Assembly: GCA_003165465.1 (NCBI GenBank)
Contig: PLUM01000101.1
Coordinates: 21,813 to 85,812 of the forward strand
Length of the DNA stretch: 64,000 nt
Direction of reading: 5' to 3'
Source: Acidobacteriota bacterium
GTDB lineage: Bacteria; Acidobacteriota; Terriglobia; Acidiferrales; UBA7541
The position numbers were made by a program, and so were the translations under genes. Under the pieces are notes generated by a model. The model ran no database searches. It saw only the letters and a program-made list of their open reading frames with translations, and had not been told where the DNA came from. Shown here piece after piece: positions 28,786 to 36,519 of the stretch; within the stretch, counting starts at the first letter, position 1; the number at the start of each line of letters is the position of its first letter.

Positions 28786-29472
28786 TCAGGAAAGTTTCCC
28801 TGTGTAGAGCGCCATTCCCACGGCGGCATTCATTTTGATGCGATCGAGGGCGCGGATTTCCGCGCGGCTGCGAATGCCTCCCGCGGCCGTGATGGGGCGG
28901 CGCGTCACGCGGCGCAGGGCGCGAAACCATGCGAGATTCGTGCCGCGCATGGTGCCTTCGGCGTCCACGTAGGTACACAAAAATTCGGAGGCGTATTTTT
29001 CGAGCTCGGGGATCACTTCGTCGGGCCGCAACCGCAATTTATCCTGCCAGCCGCGCACCAGGATTTTCCCGCCCTCGGTGTCCAGCGCGACGATTACGCG
29101 CCGCCGCCCGATCTTGAGCGCCAGCCGCTTGAGAAACGCGTCGTTCACGCGCCCATTGTTGAATGCGGCGCTGCCCACGATAATTTTCTCCGCGCCCCAT
29201 CCGGCAATTCGCGCGGCCTGGGCCACGGTGCGAATCCCTCCGCCAACGCGCACGCGCATTTTGCGTTTTTTCGCCGCTGCGCAAAGCTCGCGCACGAGCT
29301 TCGCGTTCGTTCCCTTCCGCATCGCCGCGTCCAGATCGATCACGTGAATCAGCGGGTGGCGGCCAAAGCGGTCGAGCAAACCAAACACGTCGTCCACCGC
29401 GAGCTTGAGCTTGCGGCCGTGCACAAGCTGCACGGCGCGCCCATCCTGCAAATCGATGCAAGGAATCATCAT
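28786..29472 (-). CDS. hisA: HisA, ProFAR isomerase
   Basis: MMIPCIDLQDGRAVQL; operon context. Confidence 0.93.
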   Translation of the reverse strand: MMIPCIDLQDGRAVQLVHGRKLKLAVDDVFGLLDRFGRHPLIHVIDLDAAMRKGTNAKLVRELCAAAKKRKMRVRVGGGIRTVAQAARIAGWGAEKIIVGSAAFNNGRVNDAFLKRLALKIGRRRVIVALDTEGGKILVRGWQDKLRLRPDEVIPELEKYASEFLCTYVDAEGTMRGTNLAWFRALRRVTRRPITAAGGIRSRAEIRALDRIKMNAAVGMALYTGKLS

Positions 29473-29481
29473 GCCCGGTGA

Positions 29482-30246
29482 TTAACCTGTCTGGCGAACC
29501 GCCGCGCCCTGTTCGCCGAGATAACGTTTGAGATCGCCCAGCCCTTGAATGCTGTCGTGAAAAATCGATGCGGCCAGCGCCGCGTCCGCCTTGCCCTCGC
29601 GAAACACTTCGAGAAACGTCTCCGGTGTGTCCGCGCCGCCCGAGGCAATGACCGGAACCGACACGGCGCGGGAAATTGCCGCCGTGAGCGGGCAATCGAA
29701 TCCGGAACGCGTGCCGTCCTTATCCATGGACGTGATCAGGATTTCCCCGGCGCCGCACTCCGCTCCCCGGCGTGCCCACTCCACCGCGTCCATTCCTGTG
29801 GCCACGCTGCCGCCACGCACGAACGCTTCCCAATGATCGCCGACACGCTTGGCGTCAATCGCCAGCACCACCGCCTGCGAGCCGAATTCCGCCGCAAGCT
29901 CCGTTAGCAGCGCGGGATTGCGGATGGCCGCTGTGTTCACTGTAAGTTTGTCGGCGCCGGCGCGAAGAATCGCGCGGCCTTCGTCGACGTTCGCAACGCC
30001 GCCACCAGCCGTCAGCGGGATGGCGAGCTCGGCAGCGACGCGGCGAATCGTCGCGAGAAACGTGGGGCGATGGTCGCGCGACGCGGCGATGTCGAGCACC
30101 ACAAGTTCGTCCGCGCCCTCGATGTTGTAGCGCGCGGCAAGCGCGGCCGGGTCTCCGGCATCGCGCAATTTGACGAACTTCACGCCTTTGACGACGCGTT
30201 CGCCGTCCGTATCGAGGCATGGAATGATGCGGCGCGCGAGGCTCAT
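29482..30246 (-). CDS. hisF: HisF, imidazole glycerol phosphate synthase cyclase
   Basis: MSLARRIIPCLDTDGERVVKGVKF. Confidence 0.97.
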   Translation of the reverse strand: MSLARRIIPCLDTDGERVVKGVKFVKLRDAGDPAALAARYNIEGADELVVLDIAASRDHRPTFLATIRRVAAELAIPLTAGGGVANVDEGRAILRAGADKLTVNTAAIRNPALLTELAAEFGSQAVVLAIDAKRVGDHWEAFVRGGSVATGMDAVEWARRGAECGAGEILITSMDKDGTRSGFDCPLTAAISRAVSVPVIASGGADTPETFLEVFREGKADAALAASIFHDSIQGLGDLKRYLGEQGAAVRQTG

Positions 30247-30857
30247 CGCTTGCCGCCCGCTTGCCGCACAAAATTGGAAAGGACTTGCGCCCCGACCGGC
30301 CCGGATTTTTCAGGATGAAATTGCGTCGCGAACACGTTTTCCCGTTCGAGCACGGCGACAAACGAAGCGCCGTGATCGCAGTAGGCGACGCCCGCATCGC
30401 CGGCATCGAGCGCGGCATAGGAATGCGCGAAATAAAAATATGCGTCCCGCGGAACGCCTTCCAGCAATTTACTGGGACGCTCGCGGCGCAACTGGTTCCA
30501 TCCCATATGCGGCAGGCGGTCAACCGGCGGCAGCGCGGAAACTTTTTGCGGAAACAGCGCGAGGCCCGCGTCTCCAGGCGCTTCCTCGCTCGTGGCGAAC
30601 ATGGCCTGCAAGCCAAGACAAATTCCGAGCAGCGGTGTCCCGCGCGAGACCGCATCCCGCAGCGGAGCGACCAGCGCACGCTCGCCGAGCGAACGCATCA
30701 GCGCCCCGAAATGTCCGACGCCGGGAAGAATCAGCGCATCGCAGCCGGCGAAAGCCTCCGGAGTGGACGCGCGGAGAGATTCCACGCCGAGACGCGTCAG
30801 CGCGCGCTCGACCGAAGGAAGATTCCCCGCGCCGTATTCGACGAGTGCGATATTCAT
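30243..30857 (-). CDS. hisH: HisH, imidazole glycerol phosphate synthase amidotransferase
   Basis: GTPLLGICLGLQAMF; VEYGAGNLPSVERAL. Confidence 0.97.
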   Translation of the reverse strand: MNIALVEYGAGNLPSVERALTRLGVESLRASTPEAFAGCDALILPGVGHFGALMRSLGERALVAPLRDAVSRGTPLLGICLGLQAMFATSEEAPGDAGLALFPQKVSALPPVDRLPHMGWNQLRRERPSKLLEGVPRDAYFYFAHSYAALDAGDAGVAYCDHGASFVAVLERENVFATQFHPEKSGPVGAQVLSNFVRQAGGKR

Positions 30858-31441
30858 AACAGCCCCTTCGTACTCGGCAGCACGCGCTTCAATTGCGGAT
30901 CGCGCGTGGCCGCAAAACGCAGCGCCCGCGCAAACGCCTTGAAGATCGCCTCCACCTGATGATGCGACGAGCGGCCATACAGAAGGCTCAGGTGCACGTT
31001 CGCGCCCGCGGCCTGCGCGAAGCCGCCGAAGAAATCCTCGAGCAATTCCACTTGCATGCCGCCAACCTGCTTGGCCGAGAATTTCCAGTTGCAGACGAGG
31101 TGCGGCCGCCCGCTGAAGTCGATGGCCGCCGCCGCGAGGGTTTCGTCCATCGGCATCAGGAAATATCCGGCGCGCAAAATGCCGCGCTTTGAGCCGAGCG
31201 CCTTGCGGACCGCTTCGCCCAGCACGATGCCCGTGTCCTCGACCGTGTGATGCTGATCGACTTCGAGATCGCCGCGCGCGGCGAGTTCCAGGTCCATGGC
31301 GCCGTGTCGCGCCACGAGCGTCAGCATGTGATCGAGAAACGGAATGCCGGTGGAGATTTTCGCCCGGCCCTGTCCGTCGAGGTTCAAGCTGATACGAATA
31401 TCCGTTTCAGTTGTGGTGCGGCGCAGTTTTGCTTTTCTCAT
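30854..31441 (-). CDS. hisB: HisB, imidazoleglycerol-phosphate dehydratase (monofunctional)
   Basis: GIPFLDHMLTLVARHGAMDL; HHTVEDTGIVLG; HHQVEAIFKAFARALR. Confidence 0.97.
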   Translation of the reverse strand: MRKAKLRRTTTETDIRISLNLDGQGRAKISTGIPFLDHMLTLVARHGAMDLELAARGDLEVDQHHTVEDTGIVLGEAVRKALGSKRGILRAGYFLMPMDETLAAAAIDFSGRPHLVCNWKFSAKQVGGMQVELLEDFFGGFAQAAGANVHLSLLYGRSSHHQVEAIFKAFARALRFAATRDPQLKRVLPSTKGLL

Positions 31442-32124
31442 GCGAGCAATTTCTCCAGATCGCGAACACTGTGCAGAATATCCAACGCTCCCAATTCACG
31501 CAGGCGTTTTGCGCGCGCCTGGTGCGCTTCGCTGCCGTGCGGCAGAACGCCGAGGAACGGCACGCGCGCGCGCTTCGCGGAAAGCGCGTCGTCGATATTG
31601 TCGCCGAGATAGAGCGCATCGCGCTTCGGCATGCCGTCGAGCAGCAGGCGCAAACCTTCCGGATCCGGCTTGCCCTTTTTCACGTCGTCCATGGTCACCG
31701 CGCGGCGAAATATTTTTCTCGCCTCGGTCCCCCCCAGCGTGTAACGCAATTCATGGCGCGTGCGCCCGGTAAAGAGCGCAAGTTCAGCTCGACGTGACCA
31801 GCGCTCCAGCCGCTTGTGCGTGATGAGCCAGCGTTCCCGCGCGACATTGCCCGGGCGGGACTTCGTGCCCCAATACATTTTCTGGAAGCGCGCCTTCACT
31901 TCCTCGTACGGAATGTCTTTTCCGAGCGACGCAATCCAATCCGTCGTCAATCGCCAGTCGTCGTTGTAGCCGGACTTGTTTTTCCATTCGTGGATTCCCG
32001 CGTAGGTGACGCGCCGCCCGGTGAAAAAATGAACCGTCTCGACGATCGACTTGTGAAACGATCCGCGCACATCCACCAGAACGCCGTCCACATCGAAAAT
32101 AATTAGTTTAGGCGCGAGTTTCAT
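31438..32124 (-). CDS. HAD-superfamily hydrolase within his operon
   Basis: IIFDVDGVLVD; FTGR; GKPDPEGL; YLGDNIDD; ATGA overlaps on both sides. Confidence 0.88.
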   Translation of the reverse strand: MKLAPKLIIFDVDGVLVDVRGSFHKSIVETVHFFTGRRVTYAGIHEWKNKSGYNDDWRLTTDWIASLGKDIPYEEVKARFQKMYWGTKSRPGNVARERWLITHKRLERWSRRAELALFTGRTRHELRYTLGGTEARKIFRRAVTMDDVKKGKPDPEGLRLLLDGMPKRDALYLGDNIDDALSAKRARVPFLGVLPHGSEAHQARAKRLRELGALDILHSVRDLEKLLA

Positions 32125-33197
32125 AGAATTCCTTCCATGGCCCGAAGCAATTTGCGCGTATCGGCCCGCGTGCCGGCGCTGATGCGCACAAAACCCTCGC
32201 GCGGGAAATCCCTCCGCCCGCGCACGAGAATTCCCTTCCGATCGAGAGCGCGCACGAGGCGTCTCGCCACGGGACCGAAATCCGCGAGCACAAAATTCGC
32301 GCTGCTTGGATAAATTCGAGCCCCCAGCCGCACCAGCCCCTTTTCCAGCATCGCGCGACTCTGCAAAACCTCGCGCGTGTAACCGCGCAGAAAGCGCGGA
32401 TCGCCAACGGCCGCTTCCGCCGCCACGAGCGCCACCGAATTCACCGGATACGGCGTGCCCGCGCGGCGCATCACCCCCAGCAGTTCGGGCCTTCCGAAAA
32501 GACAGCCCACGCGCAGGGCCGCAAGGCCCGCCGATTTGGAAAACGTGCGCGCCACCAGCAAGTTGGGATAACGGCGAATCCACGGAAGAATCGTCAGCCC
32601 CGAAAAATCGAAGTAGGCTTCATCGACCAGGACCAGCGTGTGCGAAGCCGCCTGTAAAATTCGGCGCAGCTCGTCGCGCTTCACCAATGTGCCCGTGGGA
32701 TTATTGGGATTGGCGATGTACAGAACGCGCGGGCAGCGCTTTGCCGGCTGACGCAGCACGCGAATCACGTCGTCCACCGGAAAGCGCATCTCTTCGTCAT
32801 ATCGCAACGCGGCGACGCGCGCGCCCGCCAGTTCCGCGAAAAAACGATACATGTCGAATGTCGGCTCGACGACCAGCACCGAATCGCCATCCTCGATGAA
32901 CGTATCCGCGATCAGGTGCAGCGCATCGTCGATGCCGTTCGTCAGGTGCATCTCCGCCGGCCGCACACGGAAGAAACGTGCCAGGCGCTTGGTCGTCTCC
33001 TGATACTCGGGATAAATAGCCATCTCTTCCGCTGTTATGCGTGAAAGCGCGCGCAAAACAGCGGGAGAGCAGCCCACCGTGTTCTCGTTGAAGTCGAGGC
33101 GAAGTTTTTTTGCGCGTCCTTCCGCAGGAGCGTTATACGGCGTGAGGCCCAACACCGCCTTGCGGATTGGAATTTTCAGAAGCTTTGCGCGCTTCAC
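32121..33197 (-). CDS. hisC: HisC, histidinol-phosphate aminotransferase (GTG start)
   Basis: LDFNENTVGCSP; NPNNPTGTLV; RTFSKSAGLAALRVG; GTGA overlap with hisD. Confidence 0.93.
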   Translation of the reverse strand: MKRAKLLKIPIRKAVLGLTPYNAPAEGRAKKLRLDFNENTVGCSPAVLRALSRITAEEMAIYPEYQETTKRLARFFRVRPAEMHLTNGIDDALHLIADTFIEDGDSVLVVEPTFDMYRFFAELAGARVAALRYDEEMRFPVDDVIRVLRQPAKRCPRVLYIANPNNPTGTLVKRDELRRILQAASHTLVLVDEAYFDFSGLTILPWIRRYPNLLVARTFSKSAGLAALRVGCLFGRPELLGVMRRAGTPYPVNSVALVAAEAAVGDPRFLRGYTREVLQSRAMLEKGLVRLGARIYPSSANFVLADFGPVARRLVRALDRKGILVRGRRDFPREGFVRISAGTRADTRKLLRAMEGIL

Positions 33198-34447
33198 CGA
33201 CGCACCTCGACAGCGCGGGCGTGCGCTTCCAGGCCCTCGGCGCGAGCCATGGCCGTGACGACCGGCGCGAGGCTCTTCAGTCCCGCGCGGGAAATTTCCT
33301 GCGTGCTCGAACATTTCACAAAGTCCGCGACGCTCAAGCCGCCGCGCGCGCGCGCCCAGCCGGACGTGGGCAGCACATGGTTCGTGCCGCTCGCGTAATC
33401 TCCTGCCGGCTGCGCGCTCCAGGGCCCCAGAAACACGCTTCCCGCTTCGGACAATTTTTCGACCAATGTTTTATTCACCTCCGGAATGCTCAGGTGTTCC
33501 GGAGCCACGCGGTTTGCAAATCGAATGGCCGCGTCCAGCGAAGGCGCAACCAGGATGGCGCTCGCCTGCCGCAAGGATTTCCACGCCGGATTTGTTTTCG
33601 GCAAATCGCGCAGTTGCTTTTCCACTTCCTCGGCAACCGCCTTTGCCAATCGCGCGGATGGCGTGAGCAGCAAGGCAACGGCCTCGGGATCGTGCTCGGC
33701 CTGCGCGAGAATATCCGCGGCGATGTAGCGCGGCGATCCGCCCGTGGCCAGGATCAGCACTTCCGTCGGGCCAGCGGGCATGTCAATCGCGCAATCGTTT
33801 GACACGATGCGTTTCGCGGCGGTGACATAGCGATTGCCCGGCCCGCAAATTTTGTCCACGGCCGGAATCGATCGCGTGCCATAGGCCAGCGCGCCGATTG
33901 CCTGCGCGCCGCCCATCCGGGCAATCTCCGTTACGCCGAGAATATCAGCGGCCGCGAGCAATGCGGGACTCGGCTTCGGGCACGCCACGACGATGCGCTT
34001 CACGCCCGCGACTTGCGCCGGAATTGCCGTCATCAAAAGCGTCGAGAAGAGCGAAAATCGCCCGCCGGGGATGTAGCAGCCGATCGTTCCGAGCGGCGTG
34101 ACGCGCTGGCCGACGCGAACTCCCGGCTCCACCGTGATGGTCCACGAGCGAGGACGCTGCCCCTCGGCCACGCGGCGGATGTTTCGCGCGGCATGTTCGA
34201 TCGCGCGCAAGAGATCGCGCGAAACGTCTCGCCGCGCGGCGCGGATTTCCGCGCGGCCGATCCACAGCGACTTTTGCGTGAGGCGAAGTCCGTCCAGGCG
34301 CAACGCCCAGCGAAACAACGCGGCGTCGCCGTTCTTGCGGACGTCGGCGAGAATCCGCGCGGCAACGCGTTCGGAGGCGGCGTCATGCGAACTGCGCCGC
34401 GCAAGAAATTTCGCCGCCACCGCGTCCGTTAGTTTGAGTATGCGCAT
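33194..34447 (-). CDS. hisD: HisD, histidinol dehydrogenase
   Basis: GGRFSLFSTLLMTAIPAQVAGV; DMPAGPTEVLILA; ASGTNHVLPTSGWAR. Confidence 0.97.
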   Translation of the reverse strand: MRILKLTDAVAAKFLARRSSHDAASERVAARILADVRKNGDAALFRWALRLDGLRLTQKSLWIGRAEIRAARRDVSRDLLRAIEHAARNIRRVAEGQRPRSWTITVEPGVRVGQRVTPLGTIGCYIPGGRFSLFSTLLMTAIPAQVAGVKRIVVACPKPSPALLAAADILGVTEIARMGGAQAIGALAYGTRSIPAVDKICGPGNRYVTAAKRIVSNDCAIDMPAGPTEVLILATGGSPRYIAADILAQAEHDPEAVALLLTPSARLAKAVAEEVEKQLRDLPKTNPAWKSLRQASAILVAPSLDAAIRFANRVAPEHLSIPEVNKTLVEKLSEAGSVFLGPWSAQPAGDYASGTNHVLPTSGWARARGGLSVADFVKCSSTQEISRAGLKSLAPVVTAMARAEGLEAHARAVEVRR

Positions 34448-34463
34448 CGGGTTCAAGCTTTCC

Positions 34464-35336
34464 TCAGAGCACGATCTTATTCAGCGGATATTCGACAATC
34501 CCCTGCGCGCCCGCGGCCTTCAGTCGCGGGATGATCGAGCGCACCACGTTTTCGTCGATGATCGTATTCACGGCGATCCAGTCCGGATCGCTCAGCGTGG
34601 AAATCGTCGGATTCTTGAGCGCCGGAAGAACGGCGAGCACGGCGGCGAGATGCTCCTTGCGCACGTTCAGCATGATTCCGACTTTCGTGTACGCAGCGAT
34701 GGCGCCCGAAAGCAGCAAATACAGGTTGGCAATTTTTTCGGCCTTCCAGGGATCGAGTACCGCCGCCTGATTCCCGATAAACACCGTGCGGGATTCGAGG
34801 ATGGATTCGACAATCCGCAGATGATTGGCGCGCAGCGACGATCCCGTTTCCGTGATTTCCACGATGGCATCGGCCAGTTGCGGCACCTTAACCTCGGTCG
34901 CGCCCCAGGAAAATTCGACGCGCGCGCTGACGCCGTTGCGCGCCAGATATTGCTTCGTAATGTTCACGACTTCCGTGGCGATCACTTTTCCTTCGAGATC
35001 TTTCACCGATTGGATCAGCCCATCCTCGGGCACCGCCAGAACCCATCGCACGGGCGCGAGGCTTTGTTTCGAGTACATCAGCTCGCCGATCTCCGCGACC
35101 TTCGAGCCGGTCTCCACCACCCAGTCGCGGCCGGTGATGCCCGCGTCGAGCGCGCCGGTTTCCACGTAGCGCGCCATTTCCTGCGCGCGCACGAGCATAC
35201 AGTTGATTTCCAGATCGTCGATGCCCGGAAAATAGCTGCGCGAGCTGACCGAAATCCGCCATCCAGCCTTGGCAAAAAGCTGGATCGTCGCGTCCTGCAA
35301 ACTGCCCTTGGGAATTCCCAGCCGAAGTACGCTCAT
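34464..35336 (-). CDS. hisG: HisG, ATP phosphoribosyltransferase
   Basis: [46 protein letters not shown]. Confidence 0.96.
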
Positions 35337-35722
35337 TAGCGCGAATCCTTTCCGTAAACCGCTTTGGGGTCGAACATGCGTTCGGCGTCCACCTTGGCCT
35401 CGCCGTCGCGGGAAAGCTGCCGGAAGAAACACGAGCGGTAACCTTCGTGACAAACGCCCGGCCCGAGCGCTTCCACCCTGATCAGCAGCGTATCCACGTC
35501 ACAATCCACGCGAATTTCGCGCACGCGCAGCACGTGCCCGCTTTGCTCGCCCTTGCGCCACAGTTTATTGCGCGAACGACTGTAAAACGTGACTTCCCCG
35601 CTCGCCTGCGTCGCCGCATAGGCTTCCTCATTCATGAAGCCCAGCATCAGAACTTCGCCCGTGACCGCATCCTGAATCACCGCTGGTAACAATCCGTCGA
35701 GTTTTTTGAAATCCAGATCCAT
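35336..35722 (-). CDS. hisI: HisI, phosphoribosyl-AMP cyclohydrolase
   Basis: [50 protein letters not shown]. Confidence 0.96.
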
Positions 35723-35760: not shown

Positions 35761-35803
35761 TCACAAATAAAAAGCCCGCTGGCGCTTACCGCGCCAGCGG
35801 GCT
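35761..35803 (-). terminator. his attenuator terminator hairpin
   Basis: Minus strand: GCCCGCTGGCGC-ggtaa-GCGCCAGCGGGC followed by TTTTTATTTG; 12-13 bp stem, about 50 bp before hisI ATG. Confidence 0.92.
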
Positions 35804-35825
35804 GATGAGTGCGAATTTCGATGCG

Positions 35826-35900
35826 CTACTCAAGCCTCCGCGGACACGGTCGTACGCCGTTATGGTGATGATGACCGTGGTGTCTCGCGGAGAAATTCAT
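35826..35900 (-). CDS. hisL: His operon leader peptide MNFSARHHGHHHHNGVRPCPRRLE
   Basis: 24-codon ORF with six His in seven codons, upstream of the terminator and hisI. Confidence 0.88.
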   Translation of the reverse strand: MNFSARHHGHHHHNGVRPCPRRLE

Positions 35901-35909
35901 GGCACAAGA

Positions 35910-35938
35910 AATATACAAGAGCCGGCGATTCGCGTCAA
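35910..35938 (-). promoter_or_regulatory. Sigma-70-like his promoter TTGACG-N17-TATATT
   Basis: Minus-strand hexamers at 35938-35933 and 35915-35910 with 17-bp spacer. Confidence 0.75.
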
Positions 35939-35976: not shown

Positions 35977-36519
35977 TCAGTGCAAGAGCATTCCGGTGAG
36001 CGCGACGCCCAGCCCCGCAATGCCCGACATAATTCCCAGAAACCAATAGAACCGTTTGCCGGAAAGCAGCGCGAGCGACGAAATCACGAGCGCAATTTCC
36101 AGAAACACTTCTCCCAAATCGAAGCGGTCCGCCTTGCGTTGCGCGCGTGCCGATTCGCCTTCAAAATCCTTAGCCTGCTCCTCGATTTCGCCCTGTTCCT
36201 TGGTGTACCGCTCGGCTTCCTTCTGATATTTTTCGCGAATTTTTACGGCCTGCTCCTTGTCCTTGAATTCAATCAGGGAGAGGAGGTCCAGGCTCATCTC
36301 ATAATTGTGGCGGCGAATGTTTTTCGCCTGGTAATACGCCCACTGATCTGTGGCGCGATTCTGCATCAGGAGTTCCTCGGTGTGCGACCGGTGCCCCAGC
36401 AGGGAAACCATGGCCACGCACACGGCGAGGATCGCCATGGTGACGGAAATGGGGGCCAGCGAAGGATTCTCGCGCCCGTGTTCGGCATTCTCTTTAAGCT
36501 CGCTCAGTTCGTCCGGCAT
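35977..36519 (-). CDS. DUF4337-like membrane protein
   Basis: TM at both ends, coiled-coil middle; LMQNRATDQWAYYQAKNIR. Confidence 0.75.
   Translation of the reverse strand: MPDELSELKENAEHGRENPSLAPISVTMAILAVCVAMVSLLGHRSHTEELLMQNRATDQWAYYQAKNIRRHNYEMSLDLLSLIEFKDKEQAVKIREKYQKEAERYTKEQGEIEEQAKDFEGESARAQRKADRFDLGEVFLEIALVISSLALLSGKRFYWFLGIMSGIAGLGVALTGMLLH

Follow-up and report, generated by a model that had tools for sequence, protein, structure and literature searches.

The 64,000-nucleotide stretch of acidobacterial DNA analysed here (the window) contains a compact set of histidine biosynthesis genes preceded by a short, histidine-rich reading frame, and the locus raises the question of whether this operon is controlled by transcription attenuation and, if so, how a ribosome could engage a leader peptide whose start codon lies directly behind the promoter. 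An earlier note on this DNA had proposed a histidine attenuator with an apparently leaderless leader peptide. The features of the locus are collected in Table 1.

The his operon and its promoter region

The operon was found to comprise nine genes, in the order hisI-G-D-C-HAD-B-H-F-A, packed on the same strand from position 35722 down to 28786. NCBIfam models assigned hisI, hisG, hisD and hisC, and Pfam models assigned the HAD hydrolase, hisB, a hisH-like glutamine amidotransferase and two His_biosynth-family genes, which are read as hisF-like and hisA-like. The operon genes examined (28786-35722, minus strand) did not include a hisE. The HisI protein of the window is a short single-domain form, and the HAD-family hydrolase encoded between hisC and hisB (31438-32139, minus strand) is a candidate histidinol-phosphate phosphatase. 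A DUF4337 gene is located upstream of the his leader at 35977-36519.

The promoter elements and start codon described in the earlier note were all located on the minus strand between 35938 and 35900, and a promoter scan of the region returned one promoter-like site where 0.3 would be expected by chance. The -10 element is separated from the leader ATG by 9 nt, which read TCTTGTGCC on the minus strand. Because the -10 element ends this close to the ATG, a transcript starting 6-10 nt after it would carry a 5' UTR of only 0-5 nt, too short to hold an SD sequence, and initiation of the leader peptide is therefore predicted to take place, probably, on a 5'-terminal AUG. No SD-like match of at least 4 nt was found at the leader ATG of the window. 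The description of the leader as leaderless is supported with one adjustment, since a start 7 nt after the -10 element would give a 3-nt 5' UTR; 'leaderless or nearly leaderless' would be the accurate wording. Six of the seven codons from 7 to 13 of the reading frame encode histidine (codons 7, 8, 10, 11, 12 and 13), as the earlier note had stated.

Table 1. Features of the his leader and operon, by position in the window
Feature	Position	Strand	Details	Basis
Sigma-70-type promoter	35910..35938	(-)	-35 TTGACG 35938-35933; 17-nt spacer; -10 TATATT 35915-35910	consensus score 10/12
Predicted transcription start zone	35900..35905	(-)	G35905, G35903 or A35900; 5' UTR 0-5 nt	inferred from -10 position and conserved short -10-to-ATG gap
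Leader peptide ORF, hisL	35826..35900	(-)	MNFSARHHGHHHHNGVRPCPRRLE, then stop; 24 codons; without SD	sequence; ORF type conserved in relatives
Region 1	35873..35893	(-)	5' arm of 1:2 hairpin (UCUCCGCG...GGUC); overlaps first His codons	fold; 1:2 pairing kept across families
Region 2	35821..35851	(-)	3' arm of 1:2 (35851-35835) and 5' arm of antiterminator (35850-35821)	fold; relatives
Region 3	35788..35816	(-)	3' arm of antiterminator; overlaps 5' arm of terminator (35803-35791)	fold; relatives
Intrinsic terminator	35768..35803	(-)	13-bp hairpin AGCCCGCTGGCGC-GGTAA-GCGCCAGCGGGCT (35803-35773), then TTTTT	terminator scan, fold; conserved in relatives
hisI	35336..35722	(-)	first structural gene; GGAGG 4 nt before ATG	sequence; NCBIfam
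hisG, hisD, hisC, HAD-family phosphatase, hisB, hisH, hisF, hisA	28786..35336	(-)	remaining operon	NCBIfam, Pfam

Alternative RNA structures in the window leader

The predicted fold of the whole leader has an energy of -66.4 kcal/mol, with z = -7.4 relative to dinucleotide shuffles, and consists of three hairpins, a small one lying between the 1:2 hairpin and the terminator. The 1:2 hairpin is the pause-type structure of the earlier note. Region 2 covers the end of the reading frame together with its UAG stop codon. The terminator, which had been put at 12-13 bp with a U-tract about 50 bp before hisI, was found to contain 13 pairs, 11 of them G-C, and to end ~45 nt before the hisI ATG. The antiterminator was examined by folding the leader without the 3' arm of the terminator and with its first part blocked, to mimic a ribosome held up at the His codons. 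Under these conditions region 2 (35850-35821) paired with region 3 (35816-35788) at -31.6 kcal/mol (z = -2.3), a value that, taken by itself, is only modestly beyond chance. An antiterminator pairing was thus present as described, and its extent proved to be greater than had been noted.

The leader therefore contains a run of end-product codons within a short ORF, an intrinsic terminator between that ORF and hisI, and an antiterminator that is mutually exclusive with both the terminator and the 1:2 hairpin and that uses a region 2 lying near the end of the ORF.

Recurrence of the leader upstream of hisI

Using HisI as bait, the regions upstream of hisI were collected from 129 loci of relatives, the class and the phylum, and were searched for a short His-rich ORF, one in which some stretch of 8 residues holds 4 or more His. 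Such an ORF was found at 111 of the 129 loci, compared with 24 of 2580 composition-shuffled regions (0.9%) and one on the reverse strand. An ATG-started version was present in 109 of the 127 hisI-upstream regions from Acidobacteriota. These leader ORFs have 18-31 codons (median 23), with the His run at about codons 7-13, and the terminator begins a median of 25 nt past the stop codon. Both CAT and CAC are used in the His run across relatives, and the peptide outside the run differs between families. A strict whole-genome pattern with a fixed 17-nt spacer, which is specific but undercounts, matched 33 of 297 genomes, with one match for the reversed control.

The relatives keep a promoter of the window type ahead of the leader ORF. 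To avoid circularity, the leader ATG was picked from the ORF alone and the promoter was not used. Of the 109 leader ATGs, 100 were preceded by a TANNNT element that ended 5-14 nt upstream; among 957 control ATGs from the same regions the proportion was 4.2%. The combination of TANNNT with a -35 element matching at least 4 of 6 positions was detected in 76 of 109, against 0.3% of the control ATGs. The gap between the -10 element and the ATG is mostly 8-10 nt; in several families it is 11-14 nt, so that the 5' UTR would be several nt long. Of the nine leader ATGs lacking TANNNT at 5-14 nt, several are closely preceded by another ATG that does show the usual spacing. SD-like matches of at least 4 nt were present at 13% of leader ATGs, compared with 74% of hisI ATGs, although note that the hisI starts used in this comparison are approximate and that for the window an upstream in-frame ATG was chosen. 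A -10 element close to the ATG and a start codon without an SD sequence are accordingly features of most of these leaders, and the absence of a clear SD, which the earlier note had reported for the window, extends to most relatives.

One alternative interpretation is that this is a conventional His attenuator, the leader peptide of which is translated from a longer transcript, either because transcription starts further upstream or because an in-frame upstream TTG or GTG is used. The frame of the window leader is open 5' of the ATG as far as a TTG at 36020, and upstream frames are open in some relatives too. However, these extensions 5' of the ATG are not shared among relatives, the promoter and the ATG are held at a fixed short spacing across the phylum with little SD signal at the ATG, and the short ORF alone is sufficient for a 1:2:3:4 attenuator. 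A longer transcript is therefore considered unlikely.

It could also be that attenuation is accompanied by a trans action of the terminated leaderless RNA or of the peptide, like that of Sinorhizobium meliloti rnTrpL and peTrpL. The RNA predicted here would be short, would begin at the ATG or close to it, and has the architecture of rnTrpL (PMC7298713), but the variation of the peptide between families outside the His run makes this addition to the preferred attenuator improbable.

Conservation of the alternative pairings

The pairings were compared across 110 leaders by a swap test, in which the duplex energies of each leader's own regions were set against those of swapped regions. Without correction for relatedness, the own 2:3 and 1:2 duplexes were stronger than within-family swaps (p = 2e-7 and 1e-8, respectively), and they were also stronger than across-family swaps. 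The control pairing, 1:3, showed no difference between own and swapped regions in the same 110 leaders (p = 0.8). When the leaders were folded without a ribosome, the 1:2 hairpin plus the terminator was predicted in 105 of 110; masking to the His run produced the antiterminator in 108 of 110, and masking to the stop codon produced the terminator in 109 of 110.

Consensus folds of the subclades f6, f1a and f1b contained the 1:2, 2:3 and 3:4 helices, and that of f11 recovered 2:3 and 3:4 but not 1:2. In the subclade alignments, 0 to 4 pairs per helix varied on both sides. The f6 arms read CUGACAC / GUGUCAG / CUGACA / UCAG, such that region 2 is able to pair with either neighbour. Formal column covariation in f6, the best-aligned family (19 sequences), was weak, owing to the conservation of the arms themselves. 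Of 500 shuffles, 13 reached the antiterminator score, 124 the 1:2 score and 70 the terminator score. RNAalifold did not return the 1:2 helix from the 29-sequence family alignment A1, because the 5' parts of the ORFs do not align. Given the weak covariation in f6 and the uncorrected relatedness in the swap test, the case for pairing rests on the whole pattern and on no single statistic. That pattern indicates that the three alternative pairings, and not the control pairing, are kept across families of differing sequence. Conservation of the leader and its hairpins in related genomes, proposed in the earlier note as a check on the attenuator, was thus borne out for both.

These data also bear on the idea that the hairpin is nothing more than a conventional terminator or a spacer and that the His-rich ORF is incidental or encodes a functional peptide. 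The recurrence of the His run upstream of hisI at 109 of 127 loci and the maintenance of mutually exclusive pairings both argue against it, and a strong terminator placed before a biosynthetic operon is sensible only if it is conditional, so this explanation is very improbable.

Searches with the Rfam model RF00514 (His_leader) gave no match in the window (E up to 5) or in relatives (E up to 0.5), and the other Rfam matches in the window and relatives were sub-threshold and unrelated to the question. Although his genes are under T-box control in other phyla (PMC9413887), a tRNA-sensing T-box or other riboswitch in place of a ribosome-mediated switch is scarcely credible. At E up to 5 the window showed no match to the T-box covariance model or to any other riboswitch, and what is conserved is a run of His codons in frame, written with either CAT or CAC.

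Distribution and variants

Families f5, f9, f10, f13 and f30 have his genes, but the element was not found in the neighbourhood of their hisI, hisG or hisD. In two genomes of family f35 (G199 and G400), a leaderless His-rich ORF was observed roughly 1 kb upstream of hisG (L237:1540; L236, about 1540). The two ORFs are followed by a common downstream motif, GGGTGCCGTGCGCGCC..., and the 3' part of the element is unlike that of the hisI-linked type; the hisG-linked ORF may belong to another version of this switch. In G296 (f31), the His-rich ORF MQLSSLNIHLHHHHHVHHTRVM lies upstream of hisG (L297, about 1326) with GGAG just before its ATG, and so perhaps represents an SD-led version.

Eight genomes without hisI (G007, G010, G015, G019, G025, G095, G143 and G168) were also without recognisable hisG and hisD. 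All eight are near-complete and belong to the family or order of the window, seven of them to f1, which suggests that they are histidine auxotrophs.

No conserved leaderless Trp or branched-chain leader was found upstream of trpE or ilvB in the relatives, so that, in this limited test, the leaderless design looks specific to His. Isolated candidates for branched-chain leaders were observed upstream of ilvB at L265 (G014) and L269 (G008), with the sequences SAVVAIIILIGV and RKIVVVV. Hairpins and T-runs follow these ORFs, which other relatives do not have and which are not clearly leaderless.

A model for the switch

The interpretation favoured here, to which a probability of roughly 85% is given on the basis of sequence comparison, is a ribosome-mediated his transcription attenuator whose leader peptide is translated from a leaderless, or nearly leaderless, mRNA. 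The attenuator proposed in the earlier note is supported by the His run, terminator and exclusive pairings that recur upstream of hisI in many families.

According to this model, RNA polymerase would start 0-5 nt 5' of the ATG at 35900, the exact position being a prediction, and a ribosome would load at the 5'-terminal AUG without an SD sequence. With charged tRNA-His plentiful, the ribosome would clear the His run, reach the UAG and cover region 2, allowing the 3:4 terminator to form and transcription to stop before hisI. With tRNA-His uncharged, it would stall in the His run and mask region 1, leaving region 2 to pair with region 3 as the antiterminator, and polymerase would read through into hisI-G-D-C-HAD-B-H-F-A. 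If no ribosome were loaded, 1:2 and 3:4 would both form and termination would be expected. Both the response to histidine and the efficiency of termination are predicted in this scheme.

A broader proposal would be that this is an ancestral His attenuator of many Acidobacteriota families, in which initiation takes place solely at the 5'-terminal AUG, loading of the first ribosome sets the switch, and the terminated short leaderless RNA could act in trans. The chances of this fuller picture are judged to be about even.

Comparison with known systems

His attenuators have been described in Proteobacteria and in part of the Firmicutes (PMC9413887). In Actinobacteria, his operons were found to be without conserved upstream RNA structure (Seliverstov 2005; PMC1262725), and of the attenuators predicted in Acidobacteria almost none had been given a function (Naville and Gautheret 2010; PMC2965389). 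Leaderless genes were estimated at 9.7-19.4%, about 13%, in three acidobacterial genomes (Zheng 2011; PMC3160421). A literature search in which subscription journals were sparsely covered returned no account of this element, no report of a leaderless leader peptide for His or in Acidobacteriota, and no acidobacterial start-site map. The comparisons made here support a form of His attenuation that recurs across Acidobacteriota and whose leader peptide is leaderless or nearly so.

The standard picture of attenuation relies on the timing of SD-driven initiation relative to a polymerase that has paused. For the same decision to be taken here, a ribosome would need to load on the bare nascent 5' end before about 75-110 nt had been made, and the element would therefore be a natural and widely conserved reporter of the speed of leaderless initiation during transcription. 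It is also a candidate RNA family for Acidobacteriota, and may provide a handle on His regulation in these abundant, hard-to-culture soil bacteria.

The leader of the enterobacterial his operon, hisL, is SD-initiated and has more hairpins. Like the acidobacterial element, it combines a short ORF carrying a run of His codons with competing antiterminator and terminator structures and with an intrinsic terminator before the his operon. The acidobacterial element, for its part, has no SD sequence, a predicted 5' UTR that is very short or absent, and a simple 1:2/2:3/3:4 layout. Candidate His attenuators described by comparative genomics in the Bacillus cereus group, Peptostreptococcaceae and Erysipelotrichales likewise combine a His leader peptide, an antiterminator and a terminator upstream of his operons; these are Firmicutes and thus separate lineages, however, and leaderless initiation was not reported there (PMC9413887). 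According to the account of Canestrari et al. 2020 given in PMC13236596, the mycobacterial polycysteine ORFs are leaderless short ORFs and, like the leader studied here, contain a run of the regulated amino acid, although this is Cys and not His. The mycobacterial polycysteine loci yielded no conserved terminator hairpin (PMC1262725).

In S. meliloti, the trpL/rnTrpL leader transcript starts at the ATG, as mapped experimentally, attenuates an amino-acid operon and has known trans functions (PMC7298713). That system is alphaproteobacterial and concerns Trp, not His, but has in common with the window a leader ORF, a leaderless start (predicted here) and attenuation. In its anatomy, the acidobacterial element corresponds to trp-type attenuation, with 1:2, 2:3 and 3:4 pairings, that would sense charged tRNA-His.
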